Shown one piece after another: positions 20,371 to 23,552 of a stretch of 64,000 bases of DNA (its first letter is position 1; the number at the start of each line of letters is the position of its first letter). The notes under the pieces were generated by a model. The model was not told the DNA's origin, ran no database searches, and saw nothing but the letters and a program-made list of their open reading frames with translations. The stretch comes from Sunxiuqinia elliptica (GTDB taxonomy: Bacteria > Bacteroidota > Bacteroidia > Bacteroidales > Prolixibacteraceae). Both the position numbers and the translations under genes were made by a program. The stretch lies in the NCBI RefSeq assembly GCF_900113005.1, contig NZ_FONW01000006.1:124001-188000 (forward strand), given 5' to 3'.

Positions 20371-20434
20371 TGAGTAAGGTGAATTAATTTCACACGTTTC
20401 AATCTTGTTGTTTCTATTTCACTTCTAATCGATC

Positions 20435-20710
20435 TTATTCGACGATTTCGTTGATGTTGAGAATCCGTGTTTCCGTAGAGTCATTTTTGATGCTGGTCAC
20501 CTCTCCTTTGCAATTGGTGAAGTACACGTAATGGCCTCTATCGTAAAAGCGATAGACTTTACATCCATCGTGTTCAAACAAGTAACTCACATTGTAGGTG
20601 TCATTGTTTTGGGGAGCTAGGTTTGAAATTGGAATTTCAGTAGCGCAAGAGGCAAAGAATCCAATTCCCAAAAACAATGCAAGGGCTTGAAAAAGTCTTT
20701 TTGTTTTCAT
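20435..20710 (-). CDS. Small lipoprotein, DUF4884-like
   Basis: The 91-aa protein has a signal peptide with lipobox FFASC (Cys22), then a short domain with LFEHDGCKVYRFYDRGHYVYFTNC and two cysteines that could pair. The pattern resembles DUF4884 of Bacteroides; this assignment is from memory of the motif. It would be a periplasmic or surface lipoprotein of unknown role. It lies downstream of the radical SAM/micro-peptide genes on the same strand. Confidence 0.75.
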   Translation of the reverse strand: MKTKRLFQALALFLGIGFFASCATEIPISNLAPQNNDTYNVSYLFEHDGCKVYRFYDRGHYVYFTNCKGEVTSIKNDSTETRILNINEIVE

Positions 20711-20720
20711 AGGCTTTATT

Positions 20721-20834
20721 TTAGTCGTTTACGCATTTGCTTTCGTGTAATCTATTCGGTGTTTTTGTGATTTGCAGCCAAGTTGGCCTCTCAGTTGCCA
20801 GCAGGCTAATGCTTCTAAAAATAGCATAAATCAT
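20721..20834 (-). CDS. Possible 37-aa micro-gene
   Basis: An ATG at 20834 opens a 37-codon frame ending in TAA at 20721, between the 42-aa peptide gene and the lipoprotein gene. The product starts MIYAIFRSISLLATERP and ends with a Cys near the C-terminus (HESKCVND). The frame is also open for 11 codons before the ATG. There is no homology evidence and no clear ribosome-binding signal; it may be chance. Confidence 0.22.
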   Translation of the reverse strand: MIYAIFRSISLLATERPTWLQITKTPNRLHESKCVND

Positions 20835-20867
20835 GCCGTAGCAGGCACCGGTTGCGAAGAAAATGAA

Positions 20868-20996
20868 TTATTTTTTCTTATGCAGCTCTGGGCGTTGAGA
20901 GCTTATAAATAAGCCTTTACTTCCGGCAGTATTACTGGCTCTTAACTTGGTTCCTGTCAGTAGTCGTTTTAAAATTTTTACGAGTGAATTTTTCAT
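20868..20996 (-). CDS. Candidate 42-aa RiPP-like precursor peptide next to a radical SAM enzyme
   Basis: An ATG at 20996 opens 42 codons to TAA at 20868, beginning 20 bp after the stop of the radical SAM gene on the same strand. The peptide starts with a basic helix-prone leader (MKNSLVKILKRLLTG) and continues with a Ser/Gly/Thr-rich core-like part (ASNTAGSKGLFISSQRP) and a Lys-rich end. It has no cysteine and no GG cleavage motif. Position, size and composition fit a substrate of the radical SAM protein; this is an inference, and a random short frame cannot be excluded. Confidence 0.5.
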   Translation of the reverse strand: MKNSLVKILKRLLTGTKLRASNTAGSKGLFISSQRPELHKKK

Positions 20997-21016
20997 GATG
21001 TATTCGTTTTTATTGG

Positions 21017-22075
21017 TTATGATGAAATTGATTGAATAATTGCTGATTTTCTTTTTTTCAGAATCGATTTTAATCCTTCTGTTGAAATATTTTCCAAGCT
21101 CAATTCGTGATAGTTTTTAGCATGAAAACAATCGGGTTTGGGAAGAACATAGCCATCGGGGCTTATCACCATTTGGTAAAGATAGGGGAGGTCAAAAAAC
21201 TCGAATGAAAACTGCAGCCAGCTGTTGTTGAGCTTTTCTTCTACGTTTTGGCCGGTTGCTAAAAACTGTTCGAATCGTTTTCGCAGGTAAGCATCTTCTT
21301 GCCAAAAATCTGGAATCGTGTGATGCTGAATGCAGAAGTAAATATTGAGAGCCTGTTCACTTTCTTCCAAGAAATGATGAGTTTTTTGAATGAGTCTCGA
21401 ATAGTCTTCGTTTGAGATGAGCTGATGACTCAGGTTTTTAGCATGCCCAATTGGAAGAATCGGGCTTGCAAAAAATTTTGTAATTCCCAGTGACGAAAAG
21501 CGGAAAATAAGCTCAGGCATGCAAGACTGGTTTCCTTGATACAGCGAGGTCGCCAGATTAATCTTTTCAGGGTTAATCCAGCTGATTAGCTGTTTCAGGT
21601 TGTGCTCCATCTTGTCAAAACTTCCTGCTCCGCGAATGAAATCATGCTGTTCGGGCAAACCATCGACACTGATTTCTAAATAGTCAATGTCATTTGAAAC
21701 AGCTTCAAAAAAAGGCAGGTTTGAAGAGGCGTTTGAAATGATTCCGCAAAAATTGCCAGCATCAAGCTGTTTGACGTATTTACATAATTGAGGGATCTGG
21801 CTGTTTAATGAACTTTCCTTCCCCGAGAAATGAAAATGCCGGCATCCCTGATCGTAAAATGCTTCAATAACAGTCTTCCATTCGTTCAGTGAAAGTGGGT
21901 TGCCGACGAGCGTTGTATCTCCCCAATAACAGTGTTTACAGTTGAGGTTGCAAGCATAACTTACACTCAAATCCAGAATGAGAGCATCCAGCTTGTTGGT
22001 TGCTGCTTTTATTTGTTTCCTAAGTAGTTTTTGAGAATAGAAATCCTCCAATAATTGCAGTACTTGTTTATTCAT
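21017..22075 (-). CDS. Radical SAM protein (candidate peptide maturase)
   Basis: The 352-aa protein has the [4Fe-4S] motif SYACNLNCKHCYW (Cys42, Cys46, Cys49), then HFHFSGKESSLN where the SAM-binding GGE motif is expected, and DYLEISVDGLPEQHDFIRG. The C-terminal region (VISPDGYVLPKPDC followed by LSLENISTEGLKSIL) has the outline of a SPASM/twitch domain but keeps only one Cys, so auxiliary clusters are doubtful. It overlaps the upstream two-TM gene by 8 bp and is followed by a 42-codon gene. The context suggests post-translational peptide modification; no named subfamily could be assigned. Confidence 0.8.
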   Translation of the reverse strand: MNKQVLQLLEDFYSQKLLRKQIKAATNKLDALILDLSVSYACNLNCKHCYWGDTTLVGNPLSLNEWKTVIEAFYDQGCRHFHFSGKESSLNSQIPQLCKYVKQLDAGNFCGIISNASSNLPFFEAVSNDIDYLEISVDGLPEQHDFIRGAGSFDKMEHNLKQLISWINPEKINLATSLYQGNQSCMPELIFRFSSLGITKFFASPILPIGHAKNLSHQLISNEDYSRLIQKTHHFLEESEQALNIYFCIQHHTIPDFWQEDAYLRKRFEQFLATGQNVEEKLNNSWLQFSFEFFDLPYLYQMVISPDGYVLPKPDCFHAKNYHELSLENISTEGLKSILKKRKSAIIQSISS

Positions 22076-22952
22076 AGTACAAGAGGTAGTCGGCGTTCAT
22101 CTCAGGTTGATCAATCTCAAGGGTATAACGATCCGGATTAGCGTCATCTGCATAAACATTCCGAAGAAATACGGGCTCGTTATCTTGGGGACCATACTTG
22201 TAAGCTTCAACATTGTTGAACTTCATCTCTGGAGTTTTCTGAAGCGATAAAATGGCTTTATGAGTGCTTTTTGAATAAACATTCGGTAATGAAATATAAT
22301 CTCTAAGCTCAAGTAACATTTTGGGCCAGGTCCAGCTAATTTGTAGCTCAAAGGTATCGCCTTTTTCTTTTTTGTTTTTAAATGAAATGATGATGTCTTT
22401 TATGGTTTCATCCCTGCCTCTATCGGCAATTTTAGCATTTAGTCGTTGATTGGTTCGTAGGTCTTCTACAACAAAATTGAGGTTGTCAAATGAGGTGTTT
22501 TCGTCACCTCCAATTGTTACGATAAACTGCCAAGTGGCGTCCGTAAATTTTCCTTTAAAGTAGAATGAAGCTTTTGTATCACGCAGGCGTCCGTTCGGGA
22601 GTATTTCGTCTTTCACCTCAAATAGATCTAAAATAACGGGGTTGTCGGGGCGGATGGTTCCTGATCTCCACATGTGGGCGTAAATTAAAGGCCATTTCTT
22701 AAAAAAGGGAACATTCCGTTCTTTTTCTAAGAATTCCAGACGGTTGCGCAAACTGCTAATCTCTTTATTCTTTTTCTGGATAAAGCGGAGAAAAAGAATC
22801 AATACGAAAAAAAGCACTGCAACAGCTAATGCAAGAATCCATATTTTTTTGTTCTCGGCAAATAGCGGATAAGAAATCAGGGTGACAATGGAGGCAACAA
22901 ATCCAATAAAACCACTAACAATCAGAAAGGTGTCTTTTAGGCTGTTTCTCAT
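22068..22952 (-). CDS. Two-TM membrane protein with a large soluble domain, unknown function
   Basis: The 294-aa protein has two membrane helices (residues ~8-29 and ~37-60), a short coiled coil (QKKNKEISSLRNRLEFLEKE) and a beta-rich soluble C-terminal domain of ~200 residues (FYFKGKFTDATWQFIVTIGG and more) ending LEIDQPEMNADYLLYYE. No family was recognised. The layout of two TM helices plus a beta-rich domain recalls effectors of some defence systems, but no nucleotidyltransferase or other partner lies nearby, so that is only an analogy. It is translationally coupled to the radical SAM gene (8-bp overlap). Confidence 0.65.
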   Translation of the reverse strand: MRNSLKDTFLIVSGFIGFVASIVTLISYPLFAENKKIWILALAVAVLFFVLILFLRFIQKKNKEISSLRNRLEFLEKERNVPFFKKWPLIYAHMWRSGTIRPDNPVILDLFEVKDEILPNGRLRDTKASFYFKGKFTDATWQFIVTIGGDENTSFDNLNFVVEDLRTNQRLNAKIADRGRDETIKDIIISFKNKKEKGDTFELQISWTWPKMLLELRDYISLPNVYSKSTHKAILSLQKTPEMKFNNVEAYKYGPQDNEPVFLRNVYADDANPDRYTLEIDQPEMNADYLLYYE

Positions 22953-23160
22953 ATTTTTAGGCTTGTAGGTGTTTCTTGAATCAGTTGATATTCAGTCATT
23001 CATAACAATTCGATGCCTGGGAATTGCCTTCAATACACAAACCCAAAATCTCTTTTTCCTATAACTGTCTTTCTTCAGATATGGCACATCGGAAAACTTG
23101 CCGATTCGATTCGTTAAGCAGGAGTAAATCTAACAATATCTTTTTCGATGATCAACATTC

Positions 23161-23189
23161 GTTCATAAAAAATGAGTTTTTTTATGAAC
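23161..23189. repeat. 12-bp perfect inverted repeat upstream of the cobalamin promoter
   Basis: GTTCATAAAAAA (23161-23172) and TTTTTTATGAAC (23178-23189) are perfect arms around a 5-nt loop. It lies between the divergent two-TM gene and the btuB-like promoter. It may be an operator or a bidirectional terminator. The rest of 22953-23239 shows no gene. Confidence 0.5.
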
Positions 23190-23239
23190 TGTATTTTGCG
23201 AATAAAGGAAAGCTAAGAATTCAATTCCTCGTTGTACTA

Positions 23240-23269
23240 TTTCTTTTCTTAAAATAATATATACTTTTG
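23240..23269 (+). promoter_or_regulatory. Promoter of the cobalamin riboswitch transcript
   Basis: TACTTTTG (23262-23269) is a full match to TAnnTTTG. TTTC at 23240-23243, 18 bp upstream, is a weak -33. Transcription would start just before the riboswitch, which supports the call. Confidence 0.6.
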
Positions 23270-23277
23270 TTGCATTA

Positions 23278-23425
23278 TTGGTGCTATGCTTTTGCGTAGC
23301 TAAGAGGGAATCAGGTGAAAATCCTGAACAGACCCGCTGCTGTAAGCTCAAGAAGGCCTTATGCGGAATAAACCACTGTGAATAACGGGAAGGTGCATAA
23401 GATGAGTAAGTCAGAAGACCTGCCA
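23278..23425 (+). ncRNA. Cobalamin (adenosylcobalamin-type) riboswitch
   Basis: The core elements occur in order: TTGGTGCTATGC, then AGAGGGAATCAGGTGAAAAT, CAGACCCGCTGCTGTAAG, AACCACTGTGAATAACGGGA followed by AGG, and the closing GTCAGAAGACCTGCC. These fit the cobalamin riboswitch consensus (P3-P6 core and the GAAGACCTGCC end). It lies 128 bp before a BtuB-type receptor gene, the expected target. Binding of B12 should switch the operon off. Confidence 0.95.
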
Positions 23426-23552
23426 ATACATTACATAGTTTTTAAACTTTCGGGGATTAAAGTTTAGAGATGGAAAGGTTCTTCTTTGGAACTACTTTTC
23501 TGTTCTTCGCATACCATTTCCTGAAAGTAGTAATAGTTAGGAATTAGCGATA

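Follow-up and report, generated by a model that had tools for sequence, protein, structure and literature searches.

A stretch of 64,000 nucleotides from the Sunxiuqinia elliptica genome (G000:C14:124001-188000, part of a 5.09-Mb genome; hereafter the window) carries three adjoining genes that encode a membrane protein with two transmembrane (TM) helices, a radical S-adenosylmethionine (rSAM) enzyme, and a 42-aa peptide. An earlier inspection of the sequence (the original prediction) had proposed that these genes form an undescribed cassette resembling those for ribosomally synthesized and post-translationally modified peptides (RiPPs), and this proposal is supported by the conserved adjacency of the genes and by a conserved peptide core. 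At all seven loci compared here, the TM gene, the rSAM gene, and a short gene whose product contains the tetrapeptide KGLF follow one another in this order, on one strand and with tight spacing. That the cassette is real, and that it is undescribed in the searches made, is well supported. In kind it belongs to the known rSAM-modified peptide systems; what is new is the precursor family and the membrane partner. The genes and the core lie in the window as follows.

22068-22952, minus strand: two-TM protein, 294 aa, first gene of the cassette, present in all seven cassettes
21017-22075, minus strand: rSAM enzyme, 352 aa (Pfam PF04055, E 1.9e-13, and cysteine columns)
20868-20996, minus strand: putative precursor peptide, 42 aa, with the core AGSKGLF at residues 24-30 and a basic tail (KGLF in 7/7 cassettes)
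20907-20924, minus strand: codons of GSKGLF, the conserved core (pattern match G000:C14:144906-144924 and alignment)

The short gene and its conserved core

The seven loci are those of the window, genome G035, a Candidatus Azobacteroides metagenome-assembled genome (MAG; G624), a Prevotellaceae MAG (L018), Phocaeicola vulgatus ATCC 8482, its near relative G1168, and an IMG/VR contig (L100). In the window, the TM and rSAM genes overlap by 8 bp, and 20 bp separate the rSAM stop codon from the start of the 42-codon gene; the genes, their overlap and spacing, the CX3CX2C motif of the enzyme, and the absence of cysteine from the peptide are all as originally described. The peptide also has no GG motif. 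At every locus, the ATG of the peptide gene is no more than 20 nt away from the rSAM stop codon or overlaps it. KGLF is present in all seven peptides, as part of GSKGLF in six and of AAKGLF in L100, and in 7/7 cassettes a short gene with a conserved core stands beside a possible modifying enzyme, which is a general trait of RiPP systems. The peptide is 35-47 aa long in the window, G035, G624, and L100. In P. vulgatus and G1168 it has 86 aa and two copies of GAGSKGLFS, a doubled core that may be likened to those of multi-core precursors, and in L018 there is a 97-codon frame, the first part of which matches.

The 440 nt from the end of the rSAM gene at five independent loci (window, L014, L018, L020, and L100) were resampled with a first-order Markov model. 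A 4-mer common to all five loci, which is KGLF in the real sequences, arose in 0 of 2000 resamples, and a common 3-mer in 738 of 2000. The control loci came from a collection scan with the rSAM alignment, limited to the best 80 of 312 loci; 76 of its 77 non-members were entered, 5 were lost for want of sequence, and KGLF was found within 400 nt, in any of six frames, at 1 of the resulting 71 non-member rSAM loci (L047). Across 15 pairs, the identity of the rSAM enzymes correlates with that of the TM proteins (r = 0.90, or 0.75 once the close pair L015-L018 is left out) and with that of the peptides (r = 0.85, or 0.42 once it is left out).

These data bear on the view that the short frame is no gene and that the resemblance reflects chance or conserved DNA. 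The frame is very short and matches no library, and between P. vulgatus and G1168 its codons differ by 1 synonymous and 3 non-synonymous changes, the latter outside the core; because of this ratio, the purifying selection that the original prediction looked for was not borne out in this close pair (L015 and L018 differ, over 27 codons, by 4 synonymous and 3 non-synonymous changes). However, KGLF is kept over five independent loci at an rSAM identity of 23-38%, and this preservation, the resampling, and the position of the ATG make the absence of a gene scarcely credible.

Searches for the peptide elsewhere gave little. Five copies had no match in Pfam or NCBIfam (for NCBIfam, not even with E allowed up to 10), none of the seven copies matched PADLOC, and the seven copies gave one sub-significant match only in PHROGs (E 0.079, G1168). 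Among the open-licence papers listed by the searches, none names the three-gene KGLF cassette, and no mention of KGLF together with radical SAM was found; SKGLF occurs in 10 papers, which by title concern epitopes, vaccines, T cells, and SH3 domains. A search of six genomes with the core pattern yielded 38 matches compared to 50 in the reversed control, and 8 of the 38 were cassettes; among 10 of the 30 other matches, which were inspected, none was a convincing extra precursor. G035 has five GSKGLF copies that are identical or nearly so; the three inspected sit where a repeated element ends, and this element has a gene that reads as transposase-like.

The radical SAM enzyme and the membrane protein

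The window enzyme scores 51.4 bits against Pfam PF04055 (cut-off 29.5), which places it in the radical SAM superfamily, and it contains an HFHxSGKE motif. In an alignment of six rSAM sequences, the CX3CX2C cysteines (C42, C46, and C49) are invariant, and so is C248, the sole invariant cysteine outside that motif, which corresponds to the single-cysteine pattern of PoyD-type enzymes. After C248, each sequence has one to three cysteines (one in the window copy, C316) and no column is common to more than two of the six; the cysteine set of a SPASM or twitch domain is thus not found. Three enzymes were scanned with the Pfam SPASM model (PF13186), and those of the window and P. vulgatus fall below the cut-off while that of L100 lies above it. 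Among the curated NCBIfam rSAM systems, no model shown reaches its cut-off; the best one, NirJ or NirJ1, gives 50 versus 515 bits for the window enzyme, 58.5 versus 650 for P. vulgatus, and 70 versus 515 for L100. The Pfam and NCBIfam models shown for the window enzyme include no family match to a RiPP recognition element (RRE); no search aimed at RREs was made. The AlphaFold2 (AF2) model of the enzyme has a predicted local distance difference test (pLDDT) score of 71.

The TM protein of the window is 24-44% identical to the other members and has helices at about residues 8-26 and 37-55, followed by a basic juxtamembrane stretch. Two helices exceed the hydropathy cut-off in four of the seven proteins (window, G035, G624, and L100). 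Over the 40 residues that follow the last helix, basic residues outnumber acidic ones in 6/7 proteins; because of this prevalence, and by the positive-inside rule for membrane-protein orientation, the domain that follows is probably cytoplasmic. In the AF2 model (mean pLDDT 72; 16 of the 20 ten-residue blocks from residue 101 on at a pLDDT of at least 70), this is an all-beta soluble domain of 13 strands at about residues 106-293. In a Foldseek search, the model falls among chains of M1 aminopeptidases and of Ost1; the best E is 4.8e-7 at a probability of 1.00, and the 50 matches listed have TMq values of 0.33-0.42. The likeness is one of fold, to the N-terminal beta domain of M1 aminopeptidases, the N-terminal assignment being our reading of the all-beta region; unlike M1 aminopeptidases and Ost1, with which it shares 8-15% identity, the protein has a TM anchor and no HExxH motif. 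The copies scanned gave no family match over the cut-off, only sub-cut-off matches or weak ones over short stretches.

A proposed mechanism and its alternatives

We infer that the three genes act jointly and that a modification takes place. Whatever the reaction, the peptide is somewhat more probably than otherwise modified by the rSAM enzyme with the help of the membrane protein. According to a review (PMC8326336), PoyD homologues have a single strictly conserved cysteine, proteusin epimerases hold the rSAM cluster only, and other RiPP maturases cannot carry out the modification without their auxiliary clusters. Because the cysteine pattern of our enzymes agrees with this account of PoyD-type enzymes, we favor a redox-neutral chemistry, most likely epimerization within SKGLF, and assign this reading a probability of about 0.35.

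In this scheme, the short gene would encode the precursor and its AGSKGLF segment would be the substrate. The rSAM enzyme would take a hydrogen atom from one of the residues in this segment, and C248 would quench the radical, leaving a D-residue and not a cross-link; C248 is the most likely quencher because it is the one invariant non-cluster cysteine and conserved auxiliary-cluster cysteines are missing. The membrane protein would anchor the reaction at the inner membrane, and its soluble beta domain, most likely cytoplasmic, would take the part of an RRE in binding the precursor and would then hand on or retain the product. We propose the TM protein as the precursor binder because the conserved set contains neither an RRE nor an exporter.

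By description, the cassette resembles the PoyD-type proteusin epimerases (PoyD, OspD, AvpD, and PlpD), which combine a one-cluster rSAM pattern and a single strictly conserved extra cysteine with a ribosomal peptide (PMC8326336). It differs from them in that their nitrile-hydratase-like leader and C-terminal RRE (PMC8326336) are not seen here, and in having a precursor of 35-97 codons with KGLF and a membrane partner. The YydFG (EpeXE) epipeptide system likewise pairs a ribosomal peptide with an rSAM enzyme, and the profile of our enzyme matches the YydG structures (E 9e-5). The EpeXE operon includes an ABC exporter, in contrast to the conserved set here, and the EpeX epipeptide is not known to contain KGLF. 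EpeE has two clusters and a catalytic cysteine that is proposed to be the hydrogen donor (PMC8326336). The best solved relative of our enzyme by both profile and fold is the sactipeptide maturase SkfB; however, SkfB makes thioethers from substrate cysteines with an auxiliary cluster (PMC8326336), whereas the window peptide is free of cysteine. Clusters from the same bacterial order also combine an rSAM enzyme with a short peptide (PMC10352776), but the pseudo-rSAM, LanC, YcaO, and PCAT proteins of that account are not among the three conserved genes, and the window peptide has no GG motif.

Several observations, in addition to the codon differences between P. vulgatus and G1168, weigh against the epimerization scheme. 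The L100 enzyme has three cysteines after C248 and a SPASM score of 29.1 bits versus a cut-off of 21.5, and because of these two features it may hold an auxiliary cluster. The profile comparison with solved structures places SkfB first (E 1.5e-19), followed by viperins, 5wgg (which we take to be CteB), and PqqE, with YydG/EpeE further down, and the fold search is likewise led by SkfB (E 4.8e-7, TMq 0.45) with viperins close; both thus favor non-epimerases. Neither the second cluster of EpeE nor the C-terminal RRE that the review ascribes to PoyD-type enzymes is seen here, the latter without an RRE-specific search. The peptide gene comes last and the conserved set has no transporter or protease gene, while many RiPP clusters have another gene order and include a transporter or protease. 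Finally, the TM proteins of L018, P. vulgatus, and G1168 have one helix over the hydropathy cut-off, and that of L100 has 5 basic versus 8 acidic residues after TM2.

The three cysteines and the SPASM match of L100 would suit an oxidative cross-link in the core, made by the same cassette, e.g., a Lys-Phe carbon-carbon bond or a Phe-based cyclophane. The core Lys and Phe are invariant and separated by two residues, a Lys-Trp carbon-carbon link is known from streptide, and the enzyme shows weak NCBIfam similarity to WgkB. Such a Lys-Trp link also occurs in darobactin (PMC9055067). However, auxiliary clusters are essential in the carbon-carbon maturases PqqE and SuiB (PMC8326336), and here no auxiliary cysteine column reaches beyond two of the six sequences. 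We consider a cross-link rather unlikely.

Viperins rank high in both the profile and the fold search, which raises another explanation: the enzyme would act on nucleotides as viperin does, and the peptide would be a mere regulator or coupling frame. PADLOC pVip weakly matches the enzyme (E 4.9e-13), and viperin has no auxiliary-cluster cysteines, of which no conserved set was found here either. Yet the enzyme scores 34.2 bits versus a cut-off of 180 with the NCBIfam viperin model (NF038283), SkfB scores higher than viperins, and the invariant KGLF peptide would be left unexplained, all of which renders this explanation very unlikely.

Distribution, genomic setting, and a possible role in conflict

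The genome sets searched (relatives, phylum, order, and families) overlap and were kept unmerged. The rSAM protein was found in 3 of 149 relatives, in 1 of 395 genomes of the phylum (the own genome), and in 3 of 393 genomes of the order; each of these counts includes the window genome, as do the TM-profile counts for its own family and order. TM-protein profiles detected 2 of 140 genomes in that family, 2 of 261 in the P. vulgatus family, and 1 of 199 in the family of the Prevotellaceae MAG, the one being this MAG. In the order they detected 3 of 393 genomes, one of these by a weak match put down to chance. A weak TM-profile match in G749 sits in what reads as a very long adhesin-like frame and was taken as chance. 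Scans of sequence collections with the rSAM alignment recovered L018, L019 (the Azobacteroides MAG), L020 (P. vulgatus ATCC 8482), and L100, whereas scans of genome and viral contigs with single proteins confirmed no relative. NCBI places Candidatus Azobacteroides in the Bacteroidales, the order of the window genome. On viral contigs, a six-row TM-protein alignment found L100 alone and a six-row rSAM alignment found L100 and 31 weaker loci, none of which has a KGLF peptide by a motif scan of short frames. Plasmid records gave no match to the window rSAM enzyme and 14 partial matches to that of P. vulgatus, none covering 80%, and phage records gave 2 partial matches to that of L100.

The original prediction was to stand or fall with the adjacency of the genes and the peptide core, which hold in 7/7 loci, and with rSAM homologues that lack the short gene, of which none was seen among the close relatives. 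Two distant relatives, G818 (28-29% identical; its contig ends 198 nt beyond the gene) and G069 (match over about 90 residues), have neither the TM gene nor a KGLF peptide. In G818 (L016:57-206, 199-1299), the distant rSAM gene, which has a GKE motif, adjoins a SIR2-like gene and genes that by eye resemble those of a peptide ABC transporter, and a 49-codon frame without KGLF overlaps its stop codon and could be another precursor.

Three further features flank the cassette in the window.

20721-20834: 37-codon frame, 3' of the peptide gene, outside the conserved set
20435-20710: DUF4884 lipoprotein, 3' of the 37-codon frame, outside the conserved set
23262-23441: cobalamin riboswitch (Rfam RF00174, 106.5 bits)

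The original prediction had listed the lipoprotein and the 37-codon frame alongside the other genes. Neither has a counterpart near the cassette at the six other loci (E up to 0.5), and for this reason both were dropped, while the membership of the TM protein, the rSAM enzyme, and the 42-aa peptide stands. One flank of the window cassette is a 3-keto-disaccharide hydrolase gene; on the other flank, the riboswitch is followed by a gene read as a TonB-type receptor, a pair that looks like ordinary B12 uptake. A promoter pattern based on a Bacteroides consensus had 4 matches in the window versus 5.4 expected, none of them at the cassette. Upstream of the P. vulgatus-type cassette (L139:6792-9278, L138:2780-5791), a lipoprotein-like gene shares its N-terminus between the two genomes but encodes 828 versus 1003 aa, perhaps a variable surface protein.

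The distribution is patchy. By the TM-profile search, the cassette is found in 0/6 congeners (one genome being 71% complete), and in G001, where the flanking genes are present, some 0.7 kb of other sequence takes the place of the block 20373-23222, i.e., an empty site. The G001 site (L144:7402-8098) contains short, broken-looking membrane-protein-like frames, perhaps decayed other cargo. The L018 copy (L140:2183-9515) adjoins genes for a DNA methylase (DrmMII-like), a NOV_C protein, and MzaB/MzaC/MzaD-type proteins, with integrase-like fragments, recognized by eye, on its other side. The L100 contig encodes DUF6712 and a portal-like protein, and roughly 1 kb separates the G035 copy from a tRNA-Asn gene, past which lies an integrase. 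Carriage inside a tRNA-Asn element in G035 is unsupported, the integrase being on the opposite side of the tRNA. This setting fits a mobile or accessory trait and would allow a role in conflict.

Such a role (phage defense, an advantage carried by lysogens, or a toxin-immunity pair) would make the modified peptide and the membrane protein an effector pair, triggered by infection or directed against rivals; it concerns function and not chemistry and is compatible with epimerization. Patchiness, the empty site, and the neighbors of the L018, L100, and G035 copies all point this way, and two TM helices with a cytosolic domain are a common layout of defense effectors. However, the window and P. 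vulgatus copies are located among ordinary genes, and in PADLOC six TM-protein copies gave PDC-M39A only (E 0.001, in the TM region of the window copy) and nothing for the other five, just as the peptides gave nothing. We regard a conflict cassette as possible, if somewhat doubtful. More speculative, and in our view rather improbable as a whole, is a new RiPP class in which a membrane-tethered rSAM enzyme without auxiliary clusters would epimerize one or more residues of the AGSKGLF core, a membrane-anchored M1-peptidase-like beta domain would replace the RRE, and the product would stay at or within the producer's own membrane for conflict with phages or rivals.

Taken together, the analysis defines a system of three genes whose peptide core is invariant. 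A copy with two cores is present in P. vulgatus ATCC 8482, a cultured gut commensal, where it is testable. If the reading is true, an rSAM peptide enzyme that has a membrane partner but no conserved set of auxiliary-cluster cysteines and no recognized RRE would extend the knowledge of how such enzymes bind their substrates and quench their radicals.
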